Origin: Methylobacterium sp. PvR107
GTDB lineage: Bacteria; Pseudomonadota; Alphaproteobacteria; Rhizobiales; Beijerinckiaceae
Reading direction: 5' to 3'
Length of the DNA: 64,000 bases
Assembly: GCF_017833295.1 (NCBI RefSeq)
Contig: NZ_JAFIBW010000001.1
Coordinates: 992,001-1,056,000, forward strand
Under the pieces are notes generated by a model. The model ran no database searches, had not been told where the DNA came from, and was given only the letters and a program-made list of their open reading frames with translations. How positions within the stretch are numbered: the first letter of the stretch is position 1; the number at the start of each line of letters is the position of its first letter. This document shows, piece after piece, positions 2,620 to 16,270 of the stretch. A program made the translations under genes and the position numbers.

Positions 2620-2985
2620 TCAGGACTGCGTCTTGAGGTAGGCGATCACGTCGTTGATCTTCTTGTCGTCCGGGTAGCCCTGGAAGATCATCTTGGTGCC
2701 CGGCACCTTCGCCTTCGGGTTCTTCAGCCACTCGTGAAGATTGGCCTCGTCCCAGGTGATGCCGGAATTCTTCAGCGCGGCGGAGTAGCTGTAGCCCTCG
2801 TAGGTGCCCGCCTTGCGGCCGACGACGCCCTTCAGGTCCGGACCCACGCCGTTCTTCTGAAAGTTGTGGCACGCCTTGCACGGGGCGAATGCCTTCTCGC
2901 CGGCGGCCGCGTCGCCGGCCTCCTGGGCCTGAACTGACAGCGGGATCAGGGCGGCAAGGACGGCGCCGAGAACGAGTGAACGCAT
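2620..2985 (-). CDS. Periplasmic class I cytochrome c (c2-like)
   Basis: A soluble electron carrier. The 121-residue protein has a Sec signal peptide (residues 1-20, hydrophobic core LVLGAVLAALIPL, cleavage after VQA), one haem motif CKACH (Cys36, Cys39, His40), the GPDLKGVVGRKAG loop, and GTKMIF, whose Met99 is the probable sixth haem ligand. This fits mitochondrial-type cytochrome c / c2, at normal length. The start is well supported by caggaggaaatcc directly before the ATG. The physiological partner cannot be told from the neighbours. It is monocistronic and convergent with the OhrR-like gene. Confidence 0.9.
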   Translation of the reverse strand: MRSLVLGAVLAALIPLSVQAQEAGDAAAGEKAFAPCKACHNFQKNGVGPDLKGVVGRKAGTYEGYSYSAALKNSGITWDEANLHEWLKNPKAKVPGTKMIFQGYPDDKKINDVIAYLKTQS

Positions 2986-7764: not shown

Positions 7765-9459
7765 ATGCCCCTCGTGCCGCCCCCGCGTCCAGCAGCCAGC
7801 CAAGCGGCGGATATTCCGCCGACCAGCGTGCTCAATGCCAATCAGCCCGAATGGACGGTGGGCGACCTCGCCGGCGCGCTCAAACGGACGCTGGAGGACG
7901 CGTTCGGCCATGTGCGCCTGCGCGGCGAGATCTCGGGCTATCGCGGGCAGCACGGATCGGGCCATGCCTATTTCTCCCTGAAGGACGGTCAGGCGCGCAT
8001 CGACGCGGTCGTCTGGAAGGGGGTGTTCGGGCGCCTCCGCCAGCGTCCCCAGGAGGGGCTGGAGGTCATCGCCACCGGCCGCATCACCACCTTCGCGGGC
8101 AAGTCCTCGTACCAGATCGTGGTCGAAAGCCTGGAGCCGGCGGGCCTCGGCGCCTGGATGGCGCTGCTGGAGGAGCGCAAGAAGCAACTCGCCGCCGAGG
8201 GGCTGTTCGCCCCGGAACACAAGCGCGCGATCCCCTACCTGCCGCAGGTCGTCGGCGTCGTCACTTCGCCGACAGGCGCGGTGATCCGCGACATCCTCCA
8301 CCGGCTGGAGGACCGCTTTCCCCGCCCCGTCCTGGTCTGGCCGGTCCGGGTCCAGGGCGACGGGGCTGCCGAGGAGATCGCGGCCGCGATCCGCGGCTTC
8401 AACGCGCTGAAGCCCGGCGGCCCGGTCCCGCGCCCGGACGTGCTGATCGTCGCCCGCGGCGGCGGCTCCATCGAGGATCTCTGGGCCTTCAACGAGGAAT
8501 GCGTGGTCCGCGCCGCCTTCGAGAGCGCGATCCCACTGATCTCGGCGGTCGGGCACGAGACCGACACGACGCTGATCGATTACGTCTCCGATCGACGCGC
8601 CCCGACACCCACGGGCGCCGCCGAGATGGCCGTGCCGGTCCGCGCCGACCTGATCGCCACCGTTGCGGATCTCTCCGCCCGGAGCGTCGGGGCGGTCGGC
8701 CGCCGGATCGAGCGCGATCGGGTCGACCTGCGGGCACTCGGCCGGGCGCTGCCGAGCGCCGACGCCCTGCTCGCCGCCAAACGGCAGCGGCTCGATCTCG
8801 CCGAGGCCCGCCTCGCCCCGGCCCTGGCGGCGGGCGCAAGCCGTCACCGGGCGCGGCTTCAGTTGCTCCTCGACCGGATGGCCCGCCGCTCGCCCGATGT
8901 GGCGCTCGCCAACGCCCGCGCGCGGCTGGCGCGGATCGACCACCGGCCGCTCCAAGCACTGCGCAACGACGTGCAGCGCAAGGGCGAGGCGCTTGTCCAG
9001 CTCGCCCGCCGCCTCGTCGTCGCCCGGGACGCCAGCCTGGAACGGGCCCGGGCGCTTCAGGCGCGCCGCGCCGACCGTCTGCTCGCCCTCTCGGACCGCC
9101 TCATTCAGGCGGGGACGCGCAGTGTCGAGCGCCGGCGCGACCGGCTGGAGGGCTTGGCGGGATTGCTCGGCTCGCTCAGCTACCGCGCCGTGCTCGAACG
9201 AGGCTACGTGCTCGTGCGGGACGCCGCCGGCCTCCCGGTGCGGCATGCCGCGGATGCGGCGGCGGCACAGAGACTTCGCCTTCAATTCGCCGACGGCAGC
9301 GTCGAGGCGATTCCCGACGACGGAGCCGATTCATCCTCGGCCGGCAAGGCCGCGCGTCGGGTCGGCCCGCGGACGCCGTCAGCCTCTCGCGCCGCGGAGC
9401 GGCGGACGCCCGCGAAGCCGGCCGCGCCGGTGCGACAGGGTTCGTTGTTCGACGCCTGA
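7765..9459 (+). CDS. xseA: Exodeoxyribonuclease VII large subunit
   Basis: XseA with XseB degrades single-stranded DNA from both ends. The protein has 564 residues. An N-terminal OB fold (about 20-120) has GEISGYRGQHGSGHAYFSLKD and AVVWKG. The catalytic domain follows with TSPTGAVIRDILHRLEDRFP, the glycine-rich VARGGGSIEDLWAFNEE, and SAVGHETDTTLIDYVSDRRA then PTPTGAAEMAVP. Next comes a long Arg/Ala-rich helical region that forms the stalk, and a C-terminal SYRAVLERGYVLVRD segment. The tail of about 80 residues is longer than in E. coli and low in complexity. xseB is not in the window. Confidence 0.95.
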   Translation: MPLVPPPRPAASQAADIPPTSVLNANQPEWTVGDLAGALKRTLEDAFGHVRLRGEISGYRGQHGSGHAYFSLKDGQARIDAVVWKGVFGRLRQRPQEGLEVIATGRITTFAGKSSYQIVVESLEPAGLGAWMALLEERKKQLAAEGLFAPEHKRAIPYLPQVVGVVTSPTGAVIRDILHRLEDRFPRPVLVWPVRVQGDGAAEEIAAAIRGFNALKPGGPVPRPDVLIVARGGGSIEDLWAFNEECVVRAAFESAIPLISAVGHETDTTLIDYVSDRRAPTPTGAAEMAVPVRADLIATVADLSARSVGAVGRRIERDRVDLRALGRALPSADALLAAKRQRLDLAEARLAPALAAGASRHRARLQLLLDRMARRSPDVALANARARLARIDHRPLQALRNDVQRKGEALVQLARRLVVARDASLERARALQARRADRLLALSDRLIQAGTRSVERRRDRLEGLAGLLGSLSYRAVLERGYVLVRDAAGLPVRHAADAAAAQRLRLQFADGSVEAIPDDGADSSSAGKAARRVGPRTPSASRAAERRTPAKPAAPVRQGSLFDA

Positions 9460-9475: not shown

Positions 9476-10225
9476 TCAGGCGGGCCCGACGCGGTAATGG
9501 TAGCGGTAGAGTTCCGTTCCGAAGCCGAGCCCGCCGTAGAGCGCCCGCGCCGGCGTGTTGGTGGCGACCACCTGCAGGCAGGCCGACCGTGCACCCGCCT
9601 GCCGCGCCCACCGCAACAGCGCCGTGACCGCCCGCTTGGCGTGGCCCCGGCCGCGCAGGGCCTCGGGCGTGACCACCGACTCGATGACCAGAAGCTCGCG
9701 ATCAAGCACGCCGAAGGCGATCGCCGCGATACCCGCCTCCGCTGCGGCCGCCGCGAAGGCGCGCGGCTGGACCAGGGCCGCGACCGTGTCGCGGAACACC
9801 TGCGCGGCGCCGGCATCGGCCCTGTTCACCGCGTCGCGCAGGGCCAGCCACTCGGCTCCGGGCTCCGAAGCGACCGCGACGGACGGATCCGGAACCGCCG
9901 AGAGGCCGTCGAGGTCGCGGTAGAGCGTGCAGGTCTCATCGACCACCGCGTAGCCGGATCCCGCAAGAAGCGGTTCCATCTGCGGCGCGATCTCCGGGAT
10001 CCGGAAGATCGCTCGCTGCCCGAGACGGCCGTAGATCGCGCGCGCGGCCGCGATGGCCGGCTCCGGCGGCCCGCTACCGCGCAGGGGATTGACGGAGTTC
10101 TGCCGCTTCGACGGCCCTCCGGCGGCGCGCAGAAGATAGCCCTGAACCAGCAGCTGGCGCGGGCTCGGCCAGGCGTTGAGACAGGCTTCCTCGACGCGCC
10201 AGGCGAGCTCGCGGTCCGCGATCAT
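9476..10225 (-). CDS. GNAT-family N-acetyltransferase
   Basis: A 249-residue cytoplasmic protein. The C-terminal third carries the GNAT core: LLVIESVVTPEALRGRGHAKRAVTALLRWARQAGA, containing the acetyl-CoA-binding pattern R/Q-x-x-G-x-G/A (RGRGHA), then ACLQVVATNTPARALYGGLGFGTE and the final YRYHYR strand. The N-terminal part is degenerate and may be a second, non-catalytic GNAT fold. The substrate is unknown. The frame is open far upstream, but that region is antisense to the hydrolase-fusion gene, so the ATG at 10225 is used. It is divergent from that gene, with 123 bases between. Confidence 0.8.
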   Translation of the reverse strand: MIADRELAWRVEEACLNAWPSPRQLLVQGYLLRAAGGPSKRQNSVNPLRGSGPPEPAIAAARAIYGRLGQRAIFRIPEIAPQMEPLLAGSGYAVVDETCTLYRDLDGLSAVPDPSVAVASEPGAEWLALRDAVNRADAGAAQVFRDTVAALVQPRAFAAAAAEAGIAAIAFGVLDRELLVIESVVTPEALRGRGHAKRAVTALLRWARQAGARSACLQVVATNTPARALYGGLGFGTELYRYHYRVGPA

Positions 10226-10348
10226 GGCATCCTCCGGCGGCGGTGATCGCACGCGGCCCGGACTCGGCCAACAGGCGCTCCGGGAAGTCTTCGGCCATGC
10301 GGCGTCGCGTACGCTTGAAGCCTCTCGGGCTCGCGCGATGTCTCGGCG

Positions 10349-11773
10349 ATGTCTGAACCTGAAATCCTGTTCTGCCTGCATTTTCTGGGTGGCAGCGCGC
10401 GAAGCTGGGCGCCGCTCGCGCGCGCCCTCGACGGCGCGTTGACGTGCGTGCCCGTAGACTTGCCGGGATTCGGCCAGGAAGCCGGCAAGACGGGCTTCTC
10501 CGTCGCCGCCATGGCCGACCACGTGGCTGCGGCTGTGCGCGGCCGGGCGCCCACGCATTACGCGATCGCGGGTCACAGCATGGGCGCCAAGGTGGCCCTG
10601 GCCCTGGCGCGCCGCGCCGAGGACGGTGAGCCGGGCCTTGCCGGGCTGACCGATCTGGTTCTCGTCTCCGGCTCCCCGCCGAGCCCGGAGCCGATCCCGG
10701 AGGATCGCCGAGCACAAATGATCGCCTGGATCGATGCGGATCCCGAGACGCGCCGCCGGGAGGCGCAGGCCTTCGTGCGCGAGAACGTTGGCGCCGCACT
10801 GGATTCCGACACGGAAGCCCGGGCCGTGGCGGACGTTCTGCAGGCATCGCCCGATGCGTGGAAGGCGTGGCTCGAATCCGGGGCGCGCGAGGATTGGTGC
10901 CGCCGCATCGGGGTCCTGCGCACGCCGGCGCTGATCCTGGCAGGCTCCGAGGACGCGGATCTCGGGCCGGATGCGCAGCAGGCACTGATGACGCCGCATC
11001 TGGCGTTTCACCGCCGCGTCACCGTCGACGGCGTTGGTCATCTCCTGCCGCTGGAGCGACCCGAGATCCTGGCCGAACGGGTGCTCGATCATGTCGGCGA
11101 TTGGCCGCGCGGATCGGCGCAAACAGCCTCTGCGGTGCCACCGGCCTACCGGGCGCTGATCGCCTCGGACCGGGTCAACAGCCGTTTGCGCTCGGTCCTC
11201 GACGCCCGCGCCGAGCCGGATGATCCGGCCTATTGCCCGAACGCCGTCGATCCGGTGGAACTCGCGCTGCTGCGCGCCGTCCTCGTCCATGTCCTGCCGG
11301 TCCCGGGCATCGATGCGGCAGGCCGGCTCGACAGACGTCTGGCCGAGGGCGCCGGCGACGGATGGCGCTACGCGGCGCTGCCCCCGGACGCGGAGGCCTA
11401 TTCCGCGGCGTTGCGCACGCTCGATGCGGCCGCGCGAGCCGTACATAACCGGCCGTTCCTGGCCCTCGACATGGAGGCGCAGGCCGCGCTTCTCGTGCTC
11501 ACGCAGCGCGGGGATATGACGGTGCCGGAGAGTCTCGGCGGCCGGCTGGACGCCGACCGGATGCGGTTCTGGTTCGAGGATCTGCGCGCCGACGCCACCA
11601 AGCTCTGGCTGGCTCAGCCGGCGGCTCTGGCGCGGATCGGGTTCTCGGGGATCGGCGCGGGCGGCGACCGGCCGGGCGCGATCGCCGAGGGGCTGCCCGG
11701 GTTCCATGACGTCGGGCTCGATGCGCCGGAGCCCTGGGAGCCTCGACCCGCGCAGGTGGAGGCGGCACGATGA
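10349..11773 (+). CDS. Fusion: alpha/beta hydrolase + gluconate 2-dehydrogenase subunit 3-like domain
   Basis: A 474-residue, two-part protein. Residues 1-255 form an alpha/beta hydrolase: [11 protein letters not shown] near the start, nucleophile elbow GHSMGA (Ser77), candidate acid Asp202 or Asp204 in GSEDADL, and His231 in [12 protein letters not shown], a full catalytic triad. Residues about 265-465 resemble Gluconate_2-dh3, the small subunit of membrane FAD dehydrogenases: [69 protein letters not shown] and [10 protein letters not shown] follow its order. There is no Tat or Sec signal, unlike classical subunit 3. The stop overlaps the next gene's ATG, pairing it with a GMC flavoprotein, exactly the partner expected for the C-terminal domain. 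Domain assignments are from pattern memory. Confidence 0.75.
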
Positions 11774-13329
11774 ACCTCGCCGGGATGCGCACCTACCGCG
11801 CGGACGATGTCGTCGACGCGGTCATCGTCGGGACCGGGGCCGGGGGCGCCCCGCTCCTCGCCAGGCTCGCGGCGGCCGGCCTGAAGGTCGTCGCCCTGGA
11901 GGCCGGACCGAATTTCACGCCGGAGCGCTTCGCCTTCGACGAGACGCTCGCCGACGAGATCTACTGGACTGAGGAGCGCCTGAGCAGCGGCTCGACGCCG
12001 GAGGCCTTCGGCGGCAACAACAGCGGCACCGGGGTCGGTGGTTCGACGCTGCATTGGGGCGCCTTCGTGCCCCGGGCCGATGCCCGTGACCTGCGGCTCC
12101 ACACGGAGACCGGCGAGGGCGTCGACTGGCCGGTCACCTACGACGAGCTGCTTCCGTACTACGAGCGGGTCGAGCGCTTCCTGGGCGTCTCGGGAGCGCA
12201 GGCCTATCCGTGGGATCCCGAGCGCCGGTATCCCCTCCCCCCGGTGCCGCGCAACGGCCCGGCGCGGATCATGGCCGAGGCCTGCGACACGCTCGGCATC
12301 CGGTGGGCCGATGCCCCCGCCGCGGTCGTCTCCCGCGACTTCGACTCCGAGGGCGGGCCGCGCCGCAACGCCTGCATCAATTGCGGCTACTGCCACCAGG
12401 GCTGCCGCAACGGCGCCAAGGCGAGCATGGACGTGAGCTACCTGCCGCTGGCCGTGACCCATGGCGCTGAGATCCGGCCCGAGGCATTCGTGCACGGCCT
12501 CGAGCGCGGTGCCGACGGCCGGGTCACCGCGGTGGTCTACCGGCAAGGCGGCCAGGACCTGCGCCAGCGCTGCGCCGCGGTGTTCCTCTGCGCCGGCGCG
12601 GTGGAGACGCCGCGCCTGCTCCTGCATCTCGGGATGGCCAATTCGAGCGACCAAGTCGGGCGCAACTACATGGGCCATGTCGCCACGCAGGTCTGGGGCA
12701 CGTTCCCGCACGAGGTGCGGATGAACCGGGGCTACCCGTCCGCCCTGATCACCGAGGATTTCATCCGGGCCGGTGCCGATTTCGCCGGCGGCTACCTCGT
12801 CCAGAGCCTCGGGGTGGTGCCGGTGACCTTCGGCAATGCAGTCGCGCGCGGGCGCGGCCTTTGGGGCAAGCCCCTGCTCGACTACCTCGATCGCTACAAC
12901 AACCTCGCGGGCATCGGCATCAACGGCGAGACCCTGCCCTGCGACGCGAACATCCTGAGCTTGTCGGACGAGACCGACGCGCGCGGGATGCGCAAGGCCC
13001 ATATCAGCTTCGGCTACAGCACCAACGAGAACCGCCTGAACGCGCACGCGACGAAGGTCATGCGGAGCCTGTGGGAGGCGGCGGGCGCCGAGGACATCTG
13101 GGTGCTGGAGCGGGTCGCCCACACGATCGGCACCTGCCGGATGGGGCGCGACCGATCGAGCGCGGTTGTCGATCCCACCGGCCGCAGCTTCGACATCGAC
13201 AACCTGTGGATCTGCGACGGCTCGACCTTCCCGAGTTCGCTGGCCGCCAACCCGGCGCTCACCATCATGGCGCTGAGCCTGCGCACCGCCGAGGCGTTCC
13301 TGGCGGCCGGAGTGTCGGGGCGGCGCTGA
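11770..13329 (+). CDS. GMC-family FAD-dependent oxidoreductase
   Basis: A 519-residue flavoprotein that oxidises an alcohol or sugar-type substrate. The dinucleotide-binding motif is [11 protein letters not shown] (Gly21, Gly23, Gly26). FAD contacts include EAGPNF and [15 protein letters not shown]. The C-terminal GMC segment has [10 protein letters not shown], with the probable catalytic His, and [23 protein letters not shown] in two adjoining stretches. A cysteine cluster [11 protein letters not shown] (Cys202, 205, 208, 212) resembles the iron-sulfur-associated motif of gluconate- and FAD-glucose-dehydrogenase-type large subunits; cluster binding is inferred. No signal peptide is seen. It overlaps the upstream fusion gene by four bases (atga). 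No cytochrome subunit follows, so the electron acceptor is unknown. Confidence 0.88.
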
Positions 13330-13347: not shown

Positions 13348-14064
13348 TTATCGAACCGCGTCGCGGAGTTCCGCCAAACCGCGCCGCTGCCGGCCCTCCG
13401 CGTCGAAATTTGCGGGATCAAGCCAGGCCGCGAAGCCGGCGCGGACCCGTGGCCACTCGGCATCGGTGATCGAGAACCAGGCCGTGTCGCGGGAGCGGCC
13501 CTTTACCACGAGGGCATTGCGGAAGATGCCCTCGAAGGTGAAACCGAGGCGCAGGGCGGCCGCCCGGGACGGGGCGTTGAGGCTGTCGCATTTCCACTCG
13601 TAGCGGCGGTAGCCCAGTTCGTCGAAGGCCCGGGCCATCATCAGCGCCATCGCCTCCGTGGCGGCGGGCGCGCGCTGAAGCTTCGGTCCGAAATGCAGAT
13701 GGCCGACCTCGATCACCCCGTTGCCCGGGTCGATCCGCAGGTATGAGGCGATCCCCAAAGCCTCTCCGCTCGCGCGGTCGAGCACCACGTGGAAGAGCGG
13801 ATCCTGACTGGCCTCCATCGTCGCGAGCCGTCCGCGGTAGACGGCTTCGCTCGCGGGCATCTCGTCGCCGAGATAGGTCCAGCCGCGCATATCGGGCGCT
13901 GCACTGTAGGCCGCGAACAGGGCGGCCGTGTGAGCCTCCGCGACCAAGGGCACGACCCGGCAGGTGCGGCCCTCCAGAGGCGACCGCGGCGGCCGCGGGC
14001 GCGCCGTCCAATCTGATAGGTCCGGACCGATCGGCTGGCCGAAGGCGTTGAGGCGCGCGCTCAT
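13348..14064 (-). CDS. GNAT acetyltransferase, RimJ/RimL-like
   Basis: A 238-residue protein of the large GNAT subgroup that acetylates amino groups of proteins or small molecules. It shows CRVVPLVAEAHTAALFAAY near the start, FHVVLDRASGEALGIASYLRID, VIEVGHLHFGPKLQRAPAATEA (acetyl-CoA site), YEWKCDSLNAPSRAAALRLGFTFEG split over two strands, and a final DTAWFSITDAEWP. This is the pattern of short-chain RimJ/RimL relatives. Its ATG overlaps the stop of the paiB-like gene by four bases, so the two are probably translated together. The substrate is unknown. Confidence 0.85.
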   Translation of the reverse strand: MSARLNAFGQPIGPDLSDWTARPRPPRSPLEGRTCRVVPLVAEAHTAALFAAYSAAPDMRGWTYLGDEMPASEAVYRGRLATMEASQDPLFHVVLDRASGEALGIASYLRIDPGNGVIEVGHLHFGPKLQRAPAATEAMALMMARAFDELGYRRYEWKCDSLNAPSRAAALRLGFTFEGIFRNALVVKGRSRDTAWFSITDAEWPRVRAGFAAWLDPANFDAEGRQRRGLAELRDAVR

Positions 14065-14788: not shown

Positions 14789-16270
14789 ATGCCCAGGGGG
14801 CCGCTTCCGCTGACCGTCAGTCTCGATCCGGCGGCGCCGCTGCCGCTGCACGTGCAGCTCCGTGAGGGCCTGCGCACGGCCATCCTCAACCGCCGCCTGC
14901 CACGCGGTGCACGGCTGCCGGCCTCGCGCGTTCTCGCGGCGGATCTCGGCTGCGCCCGCGGGACCGTGGTGCTGGCGCTGGAACAGCTCACCGCGGAAGG
15001 CTACCTGACGGCGCGGCCCGGCTCGGCCACGCGCGTCGCCGCGATCTTGCCGGACGACGCGGTCCCGCATTCCGGGCCGGTCACCCGCATGGCTACTGGG
15101 CCGGCACCGACGCTGTCGCGGCGCGGGGCCGAGCGCGTCCGTTCACCGCCGCAGCGCTACATGGCGGGACCCGGGGTCCCCGACGCCTTCGCGCTCGGCC
15201 GTCCGGCCGTGGACGCATTCCCCTACGAGGTCTGGGCGCGCCTGCTCCAGGCAGAGTGGCGCCACGGTCCGGCCGAGCGGATCGACCCGCGCGGCTCACC
15301 GGCGCTCCGCAGCGCGATCGCCGCCTTCCTCGCGCAGGCCCGCGGCGTCGTCTGCGAGGCCGACGACGTCATCGTCACGGCAGGCATCCGCCAGAGCCTG
15401 CGCCTTCTGGCCGAGTTGCTCCTCGACCCGGGCGGAACCGCCTGGGTCGAGGAGCCGGGCTTTCCCGGGATCGCCCGGGCGCTGGCGGGCGCGGGCCTGC
15501 GTGTCGCGCCGATACCGATCGGGCCGGGCGGCCTCTCGGCAAGCCGCGGGGCGGCCGCGGCGCCTGCGGCCCGGCTCGCCGTGGTCACGCCGGCCCAGCA
15601 TTACCCCCTCGGCTACGCCATGAGCCTCGAGAACCGGTTGGATCTCCTGGCCTGGGCGGATGCGGTCTCGGGCTGGATCGTCGAGGACGATTACGACGGG
15701 GCGTACCGCTATGCCGGGCGCCCGCTCGCGCCGCTGCGCGCCCTCGATCGCGGCGGGCGGGTGATCTATGTCGGCAGCTTCTCCAAGCTCCTGCTGCCCG
15801 CCCTGGGCCTGAGCTACCTCGTCCTGCCGCGCGGCCTCGTGGCGCCGGTCAACCAAGCCCTCGCCGAAACCGGTCCGGCTCCGCCCGGGATCGGCCAGTG
15901 GGCGCTGGCCCGCTTCATCGAGGACGGGCATCTCGCCGGTCACCTGCGGCGGACCCGCCGCCTCTACGCCCTGCGCCAGGAAGCGCTGGTGCAGGCCGCC
16001 GGGCGCCACGCAGCGGACGTGATCGCTGTGGCTCCGATGGAGGGCGGGATGCACCTCATCGCCCGGCCGGGACCCGCCTGGACGCCGTCCCTCGCCGATA
16101 GCGCCGCCGCTGCCGCGCTCGGTCGAGCCGGAATCTCCGCGGTGGCGCTGTCGGCCTACCATGCCGGTACGCCGGAGCCGGGGCTGCTTCTCGGCTACGC
16201 CGCGGTGCCGGAGCGCGCGATCGAGCCGGCCGTGCGGCGGATGGCGGAGACGCTGCGGCTGGCGACGTGA
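14789..16270 (+). CDS. MocR/PdxR-type GntR regulator with aminotransferase domain
   Basis: A 493-residue regulator. The GntR winged helix covers about residues 15-85 (LHVQLREGLRTAILNRRL, LPASRVLAADLGCARGTVVLALEQL in sequence). A fold-type I aminotransferase domain follows, with VEEPGFPG, VTPAQHYPLGYAMSL, IVEDDYDGAYRY (Asp pairing with the cofactor nitrogen) and VGSFSKLLLPALGL, where Lys333 would form the Schiff base with pyridoxal phosphate. It is divergent from paiB-GNAT, so it probably controls them. The ligand could be PLP itself or an amino compound; the sequence does not decide. Confidence 0.9.
   Translation: MPRGPLPLTVSLDPAAPLPLHVQLREGLRTAILNRRLPRGARLPASRVLAADLGCARGTVVLALEQLTAEGYLTARPGSATRVAAILPDDAVPHSGPVTRMATGPAPTLSRRGAERVRSPPQRYMAGPGVPDAFALGRPAVDAFPYEVWARLLQAEWRHGPAERIDPRGSPALRSAIAAFLAQARGVVCEADDVIVTAGIRQSLRLLAELLLDPGGTAWVEEPGFPGIARALAGAGLRVAPIPIGPGGLSASRGAAAAPAARLAVVTPAQHYPLGYAMSLENRLDLLAWADAVSGWIVEDDYDGAYRYAGRPLAPLRALDRGGRVIYVGSFSKLLLPALGLSYLVLPRGLVAPVNQALAETGPAPPGIGQWALARFIEDGHLAGHLRRTRRLYALRQEALVQAAGRHAADVIAVAPMEGGMHLIARPGPAWTPSLADSAAAAALGRAGISAVALSAYHAGTPEPGLLLGYAAVPERAIEPAVRRMAETLRLAT

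Follow-up and report, generated by a model that had tools for sequence, protein, structure and literature searches.

An alpha/beta hydrolase fused to a Gluconate_2-dh3 domain and its linked GMC oxidoreductase: a candidate cytoplasmic oxidation and hydrolysis pair in Methylobacterium and other bacteria

Two overlapping genes of Methylobacterium sp. PvR107, located in a 64,000-nucleotide stretch of contig NZ_JAFIBW010000001.1 (positions 992,001 to 1,056,000; hereafter the window), encode an alpha/beta hydrolase fused to a Gluconate_2-dh3 subunit domain and, directly downstream, a GMC oxidoreductase. The same layout recurs in distant bacteria, the GMC partners of the fusion form one clade, and the fused subunit carries no twin-arginine (Tat) motif. 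We read the pair as a cytoplasmic variant of the gamma-alpha dehydrogenases in which a hydrolase borne by the gamma-type subunit probably opens a lactone or ester made or used by the flavoenzyme, and we give this reading as a whole a probability of about 0.4.

Domains and active sites of the two proteins

The fused gene (10349-11773, plus strand) encodes 474 residues, in which Pfam matches, an AlphaFold2 model and alignments place an alpha/beta hydrolase at residues ~3-252 and a Gluconate_2-dh3 domain at residues ~263-465. Pfam assigns residues 9-243 to Abhydrolase_6 (E 1.9e-18, above the curated cut-off) and residues 306-434 (11264-11650) to Gluconate_2-dh3, PF13618 (E 1.3e-8, 35.7 bits vs a cut-off of 23.4), the sole match to this family at E <= 0.001 across the whole genome. 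The AlphaFold2 model of the entire protein reaches a predicted local distance difference test (pLDDT) score of 88.9 and a predicted template modelling (pTM) score of 0.88, with a helical C-terminal half. Profile-profile comparison of this half with ten other PF13618 subunits, eight of which have a twin-arginine pattern, gives an hhalign probability of 98.2 (E 4.2e-14, 123 columns), and PF13618 scores above cut-off in a long open frame in 7/7 named distant genomes carrying the fusion.

Residue conservation was followed in relatives from a genome collection with one genome per species (84,980 species), whose scan gave 130 loci; the best 80 were kept and analysed. Such genome searches are samples, the script gene calls are heuristic, and some of the 80 loci have short flanks. 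Ser77, in the GHSMG nucleophile elbow (codon 10577-10579, reckoned from the gene start), and His231 (11039-11041) are invariant in 80/80 loci. Asp202 (10952-10954) is present in 79, with Glu in L145, and Asp204 in 76, with Ala in the other four, making Asp202 the better candidate and the probable triad acid. The SPPxPEP stretch of the hydrolase is likewise invariant or nearly so in the alignment of relatives. By this conservation and by its structure matches, the hydrolase half has the Ser-Asp-His triad and the fold of an alpha/beta hydrolase.

The GMC gene (11770-13329, plus strand; 519 residues) begins inside the end of the fused gene, which closes with ...CGATGA, so that the ATGA at 11770-11773 contains both the stop of the first frame and the start of the second. 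GMC_oxred_N and GMC_oxred_C both score above their curated Pfam cut-offs, and in fold and sequence the protein groups with the catalytic subunits of fructose dehydrogenase and of glucose dehydrogenase dependent on flavin adenine dinucleotide (FAD). For the Burkholderia cepacia FAD glucose dehydrogenase gamma-alpha(-beta) (BcGDH; PDB 6a2u, 8grj), one report describes a [3Fe-4S] cluster ligated by Cys212, Cys218 and Cys222, FAD linkage at His105 and a catalytic His/Asn pair (PMC6719666). In the window GMC, Cys202, Cys208 and Cys212 (12373-12405, a span that also includes Cys205) align gap-free with the three ligands in the same CX5CX3C spacing, and His95 aligns with His105. All 80 loci keep these four residues as well as the His/Asn pair (His451, Asn494), and the protein is predicted to carry a [3Fe-4S] cluster. 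Cys205 is present in 78/80 loci, replaced by Arg in the Acidobacteria and Verrucomicrobia rows; Arg also stands at this position in seven unfused sister GMCs of the alignment. Cys213 of BcGDH, which forms the inter-subunit disulfide, corresponds to Ile203 of the window GMC in the alignment. Ferredoxin-like Pfam matches of the GMC protein are weak and below cut-off, and arise from the Cys motif. As might be expected for a chain modelled without cofactors and partner, the FAD-linking and Cys loops fall within the low-confidence stretches of its structure model (54-67, 79-98 and 204-218).

In BcGDH the small subunit is exported and has no hydrolase; in the same report, the classical small subunit is predicted to be a hitchhiker on which secretion of the flavoenzyme depends (PMC6719666). 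The window subunit departs from this on both counts, bearing an N-terminal hydrolase in the place held by the Tat signal in the classical subunit. The twin-arginine signal found on the small subunit of the classical exported gamma-alpha-beta complex is lacking: the pattern RRx[FLI][LVIFM] is absent from the first 60 residues of the window protein and of 80/80 fused relatives, whose N-termini were set at the match start, so that a few leading residues may be missing. The position of the hydrolase could mean that it is structural, a platform for folding or assembly in place of the export signal, with catalysis incidental. We consider this very unlikely, as the near-complete retention of Ser77, His231 and Asp202 argues for catalysis. 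The Gluconobacter fructose dehydrogenase is periplasmic and has a cytochrome subunit. Its large subunit (PDB 7w2j, 8k6k) is membrane-bound by the entry titles, unlike the window GMC.

A first-pass annotation, made from the letters of the window, had already described the two frames with their stop/ATG overlap, the three domain families, a cytoplasmic fused protein and an intact hydrolase with Ser77, Asp202 or Asp204, and His231. Its coordinates and the lack of a Tat motif hold, all three assignments exceed their Pfam cut-offs, and Asp202 is now favoured. The cluster cysteines, the aligned FAD-linking His and the His/Asn pair of the GMC protein were absent from it, as was the unfused cytoplasmic sister system.

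Linkage, spread and origin of the fusion

The GMC gene is the next gene downstream on the same strand in 80/80 loci. With its start taken as the start codon closest to the aligned start, the overlap is exactly 4 bases in 75 of them, as in the window, and the remaining five lie at -31 (two), 14, 26 and 52. Within the genus, the full fusion occurs in 24/37 genomes, the window's own included, and a GMC gene follows directly in all 24; in one further genome (G013) a GMC gene lies at a contig end, so that nothing can be said of its partner. Among 398 sampled genomes of the phylum, the five with the fusion are identical to the five whose GMC scores above 860 bits, while the next best GMCs (497-517 bits, 4 genomes) all adjoin an unfused Gluconate_2-dh3 gene. 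PF13618 itself occurs in 35 of 385 genomes sampled of the class; further long open frames are present in G291, G207 and G072, among others. In one of the 24 genomes of the genus with the fusion, at L032 (G025:C1:5756672-5758224), the fused gene has its full length but the GMC frame is broken in two, by decay or assembly error.

The 80 loci are mostly from Methylobacterium and Methylorubrum. Other carriers are Acetobacteraceae, Acidiphilium, Sphingomonas, Aureimonas, Lichenifustis, Xenophilus and Burkholderiaceae, as well as an Acidobacteriaceae lichen genome and a Verrucomicrobia genome, so that, judged by record titles, the fusion spans Alpha- and Betaproteobacteria, Acidobacteria and Verrucomicrobia. 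A chance fusion or annotation artefact was rejected on the identical layout in all 80 relatives examined, and the recurrence of the full-length architecture in distant bacteria indicates more than chance. The first-pass annotation had called for a genome survey of the fusion and the neighbouring GMC gene. The idea that the two genes are consistently unlinked was rejected on the constant linkage in the loci examined and on the match of the same five genomes in the phylum sample.

A tree of 44 GMC sequences (quick search, no bootstrap), rooted on seven with a twin-arginine-pattern small subunit, unites the 25 fused-partner GMCs in one clade with a Shimodaira-Hasegawa-like approximate likelihood ratio test (SH-aLRT) support of 99, sister to 12 GMCs with an unfused Tat-less subunit. 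A single change accounts for the fusion on this tree, and it probably arose once. The unfused subunit aligns with the entire C-terminal half of the fusion, N-terminal extension included, and a cytoplasmic subunit probably came first, a hydrolase being joined to its N-terminus later. The unfused Tat-less cassette ("solo2") thus resembles the fusion in its GMC sister clade and C-terminal alignment but has no hydrolase domain. The hydrolase halves group together against nine free-standing relatives (support 94). When a split ancestor was sought at nine free-standing hydrolase loci (L168-L176, stretches of 9 to 18 kb, one from a contig end), no GMC or Gluconate_2-dh3 open reading frame was found.

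Pairwise distances of the hydrolase half correlate with those of the GMC protein at r 0.92 and distances of the Gluconate_2-dh3 half less closely, at r 0.83; both values come from 18 loci (153 pairs) and are uncorrected for shared ancestry. The two enzymes might in principle represent unrelated activities, fused and co-transcribed but uncoupled, a view favoured by the lack of a known substrate for either. We give it little chance, since the one clade, the constant linkage and the correlated divergence across distant bacteria speak for coupling.

The sister cassette around the unfused Tat-less Gluconate_2-dh3 and GMC genes (L045-L052, L177-L180) contains a thiamine pyrophosphate (TPP) enzyme and a membrane protein in 12/12 loci; the latter has no Pfam match in the scanned copy, L046. 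A mandelate-racemase-like (MR/MLE-type) enzyme is present in 9/12, an SMP-30 lactonase homologue in 8/12, GH15 in 7/12 and quinol-oxidase-like genes in 5/12. In another group (L053-L055, L059-L062), a glyoxalase-family gene accompanies a twin-arginine Gluconate_2-dh3-like subunit and a GMC 35-38% identical to that of the window. The one such subunit scanned, at L055, scores below the Pfam cut-off.

Proposed reaction and alternatives

We propose that the two genes yield a cytoplasmic complex of the gamma-alpha type seen in FAD-dependent glucose and fructose dehydrogenases. The substrate oxidised by the GMC protein with its FAD would be an alcohol, or more probably a lactol of the sugar type, and electrons would leave through the surface iron-sulfur cluster to an acceptor, which may be a quinone or a soluble carrier. 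In BcGDH they pass to a multi-haem c subunit, whereas open reading frames with two or more CxxCH motifs and a coding score above 0 lie within ~6 kb of the pair in only 3/80 loci, for which reason we infer a different acceptor. The Gluconate_2-dh3 domain would be a structural partner over the cluster loop, as gamma is in BcGDH, and the hydrolase, attached to the N-terminal end of that subunit, would be held on the flavoenzyme. The hydrolase would act on what the flavoenzyme makes or on its precursor; most likely it would be a lactonase or esterase that opens the oxidation product, the complex then releasing an acid. The first-pass annotation had put forward a similar coupling, in which the hydrolase may open a lactone or ester made or used by the flavoenzyme, with channelling through the fused subunit.

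We favour a lactone product as the hydrolase substrate on two grounds: sugars are the substrates of the nearest solved flavoenzymes, and 8 of the 12 sister loci have a gluconolactonase homologue close to the pair. The case is moderate, since the hydrolase fits no named equivalog and such a lactonase was seen near only two fused loci. The homologue occurs in all eight sister loci of the genus, two of them at 26-27% identity. The order of the two steps might also be reversed: an ester or lactone would be imported, the hydrolase would free from it an alcohol or lactol, and the GMC protein would oxidise the latter. Among solved structures, the nearest in sequence to the hydrolase half is 7dq9, by its entry title a feruloyl esterase, and the VIA structure list, which covers residues 3-252 of the fused model, is led by esterases and bromoperoxidases. 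On the other side, the gluconolactonase homologue is the commonest nearby hydrolase in the sister system, and its family normally acts after sugar oxidation. We regard the reversed order as unlikely.

Several results weigh against the proposed lactone- or ester-opening complex. The hydrolase half reaches no NCBIfam cut-off: its best score is 81.8 bits against a cut-off of 390 (NF051488, TIGR02427: 3-oxoadipate enol-lactonase PcaD/PcaDC), and against the PcaD enol-lactonase equivalog it scores 50.1 bits vs 255.85. PcaD and PcaDC are alpha/beta hydrolases of similar fold, and PcaDC is, to judge by its name, likewise a fusion, of a lactonase with a second domain; its partner domain, however, differs from Gluconate_2-dh3, and the hydrolase score is far under the PcaDC cut-off. 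Structural matches of this half include esterases, haloperoxidases and strigolactone receptors, and with no NCBIfam cut-off reached, lactonase is one guess among several. As for the C-terminal half, no gamma subunit is named among the 50 Foldseek rows listed of 1436 for the whole fused model, where the hydrolase half fills the lists, and none was found when PDB sequences were searched, first with the profile of this half, then with two unfused subunits. The Gluconate_2-dh3 assignment of the first-pass annotation thus stands by PF13618 and the profile-profile match, while a match to a solved gamma-subunit structure did not appear among the rows listed. The gluconolactonase homologue is near none of the four sister loci outside the genus (L177-L180) and near only two fused loci, L137 and L130, counts that are lower bounds, since the neighbour scan used one query and missed L137, which was found by Pfam. 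The lack of a multi-haem cytochrome near the pair is weak evidence, because most comparison loci also have none: such frames, here counted with no coding score applied, were seen in only 4/14 other PF13618 loci and were lacking in 10/14 fetched stretches. Finally, no pathway is shared by the neighbours of all loci, which vary by lineage.

A small chance goes to a repair activity, in which the hydrolase removes a lactone or ester by-product that is reactive or inhibitory and lies outside the main path. The hydrolase and the GMC protein occur together in every locus examined, yet their neighbours give no common pathway, which speaks for repair; against it, the triad and the SPPxPEP stretch are conserved in the manner of a dedicated enzyme.

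Genomic surroundings and implications

GNAT acetyltransferase genes flank the pair at 9476-10246 and 13348-14061 on the opposite strand, and the unit accordingly consists of two genes. Farther out lie the exonuclease VII large subunit (7765-9459), a small cytochrome c gene (2620-2985, minus strand), ~7.4 kb from the pair and with no sign of belonging to it, and a MocR-like regulator (14789-16270). The last is above the NCBIfam cut-off for PdxR; the rhizopine MocR model scores higher than PdxR, yet below its cut-off. Among the relatives, an SDR-type gene directly follows the GMC gene in one Sphingomonas group (L143, L146, L147, L148, L149; Pfam on L149) and is possibly a third gene of the unit. 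A Rieske-type reductase gene lies upstream of the pair in three loci, and a GH15 gene within ~6 kb in nine (L094, L096, L100, L107, L112, L116, L139, L142, L181).

The component families are known. In the open-licence literature searched, no description was found of the fusion, of its constant pairing with the GMC or of its cytoplasmic setting, in agreement with the first-pass annotation, which knew of no system with this architecture; a search of open-licence papers for a Gluconate_2-dh3-type subunit in Methylobacterium found nothing. Possibly, though we put this forward as a doubtful claim, the pair represents a new class of GMC dehydrogenase, cytoplasmic and with FAD and an iron-sulfur cluster, whose subunit known as an export chaperone has turned into a hydrolase, with oxidation and lactone or ester hydrolysis on one scaffold. 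It would have a single origin from an unfused cytoplasmic ancestor and have reached several phyla, with plant- and lichen-associated bacteria perhaps the main carriers, a suggestion drawn from the names of carrier genera and genomes only.

GMC relatives serve in glucose sensors, according to one paper (PMC9727119), so a soluble form that brings its own hydrolase could be of practical use. The gene pair makes a two-step oxidation and hydrolysis on a single scaffold testable and provides a genome-scale marker of a metabolic trait. For the family, a subunit that lacks an export motif and bears an additional enzyme suggests that the basic role of Gluconate_2-dh3-type subunits is to pair with the GMC protein and cover its iron-sulfur loop.
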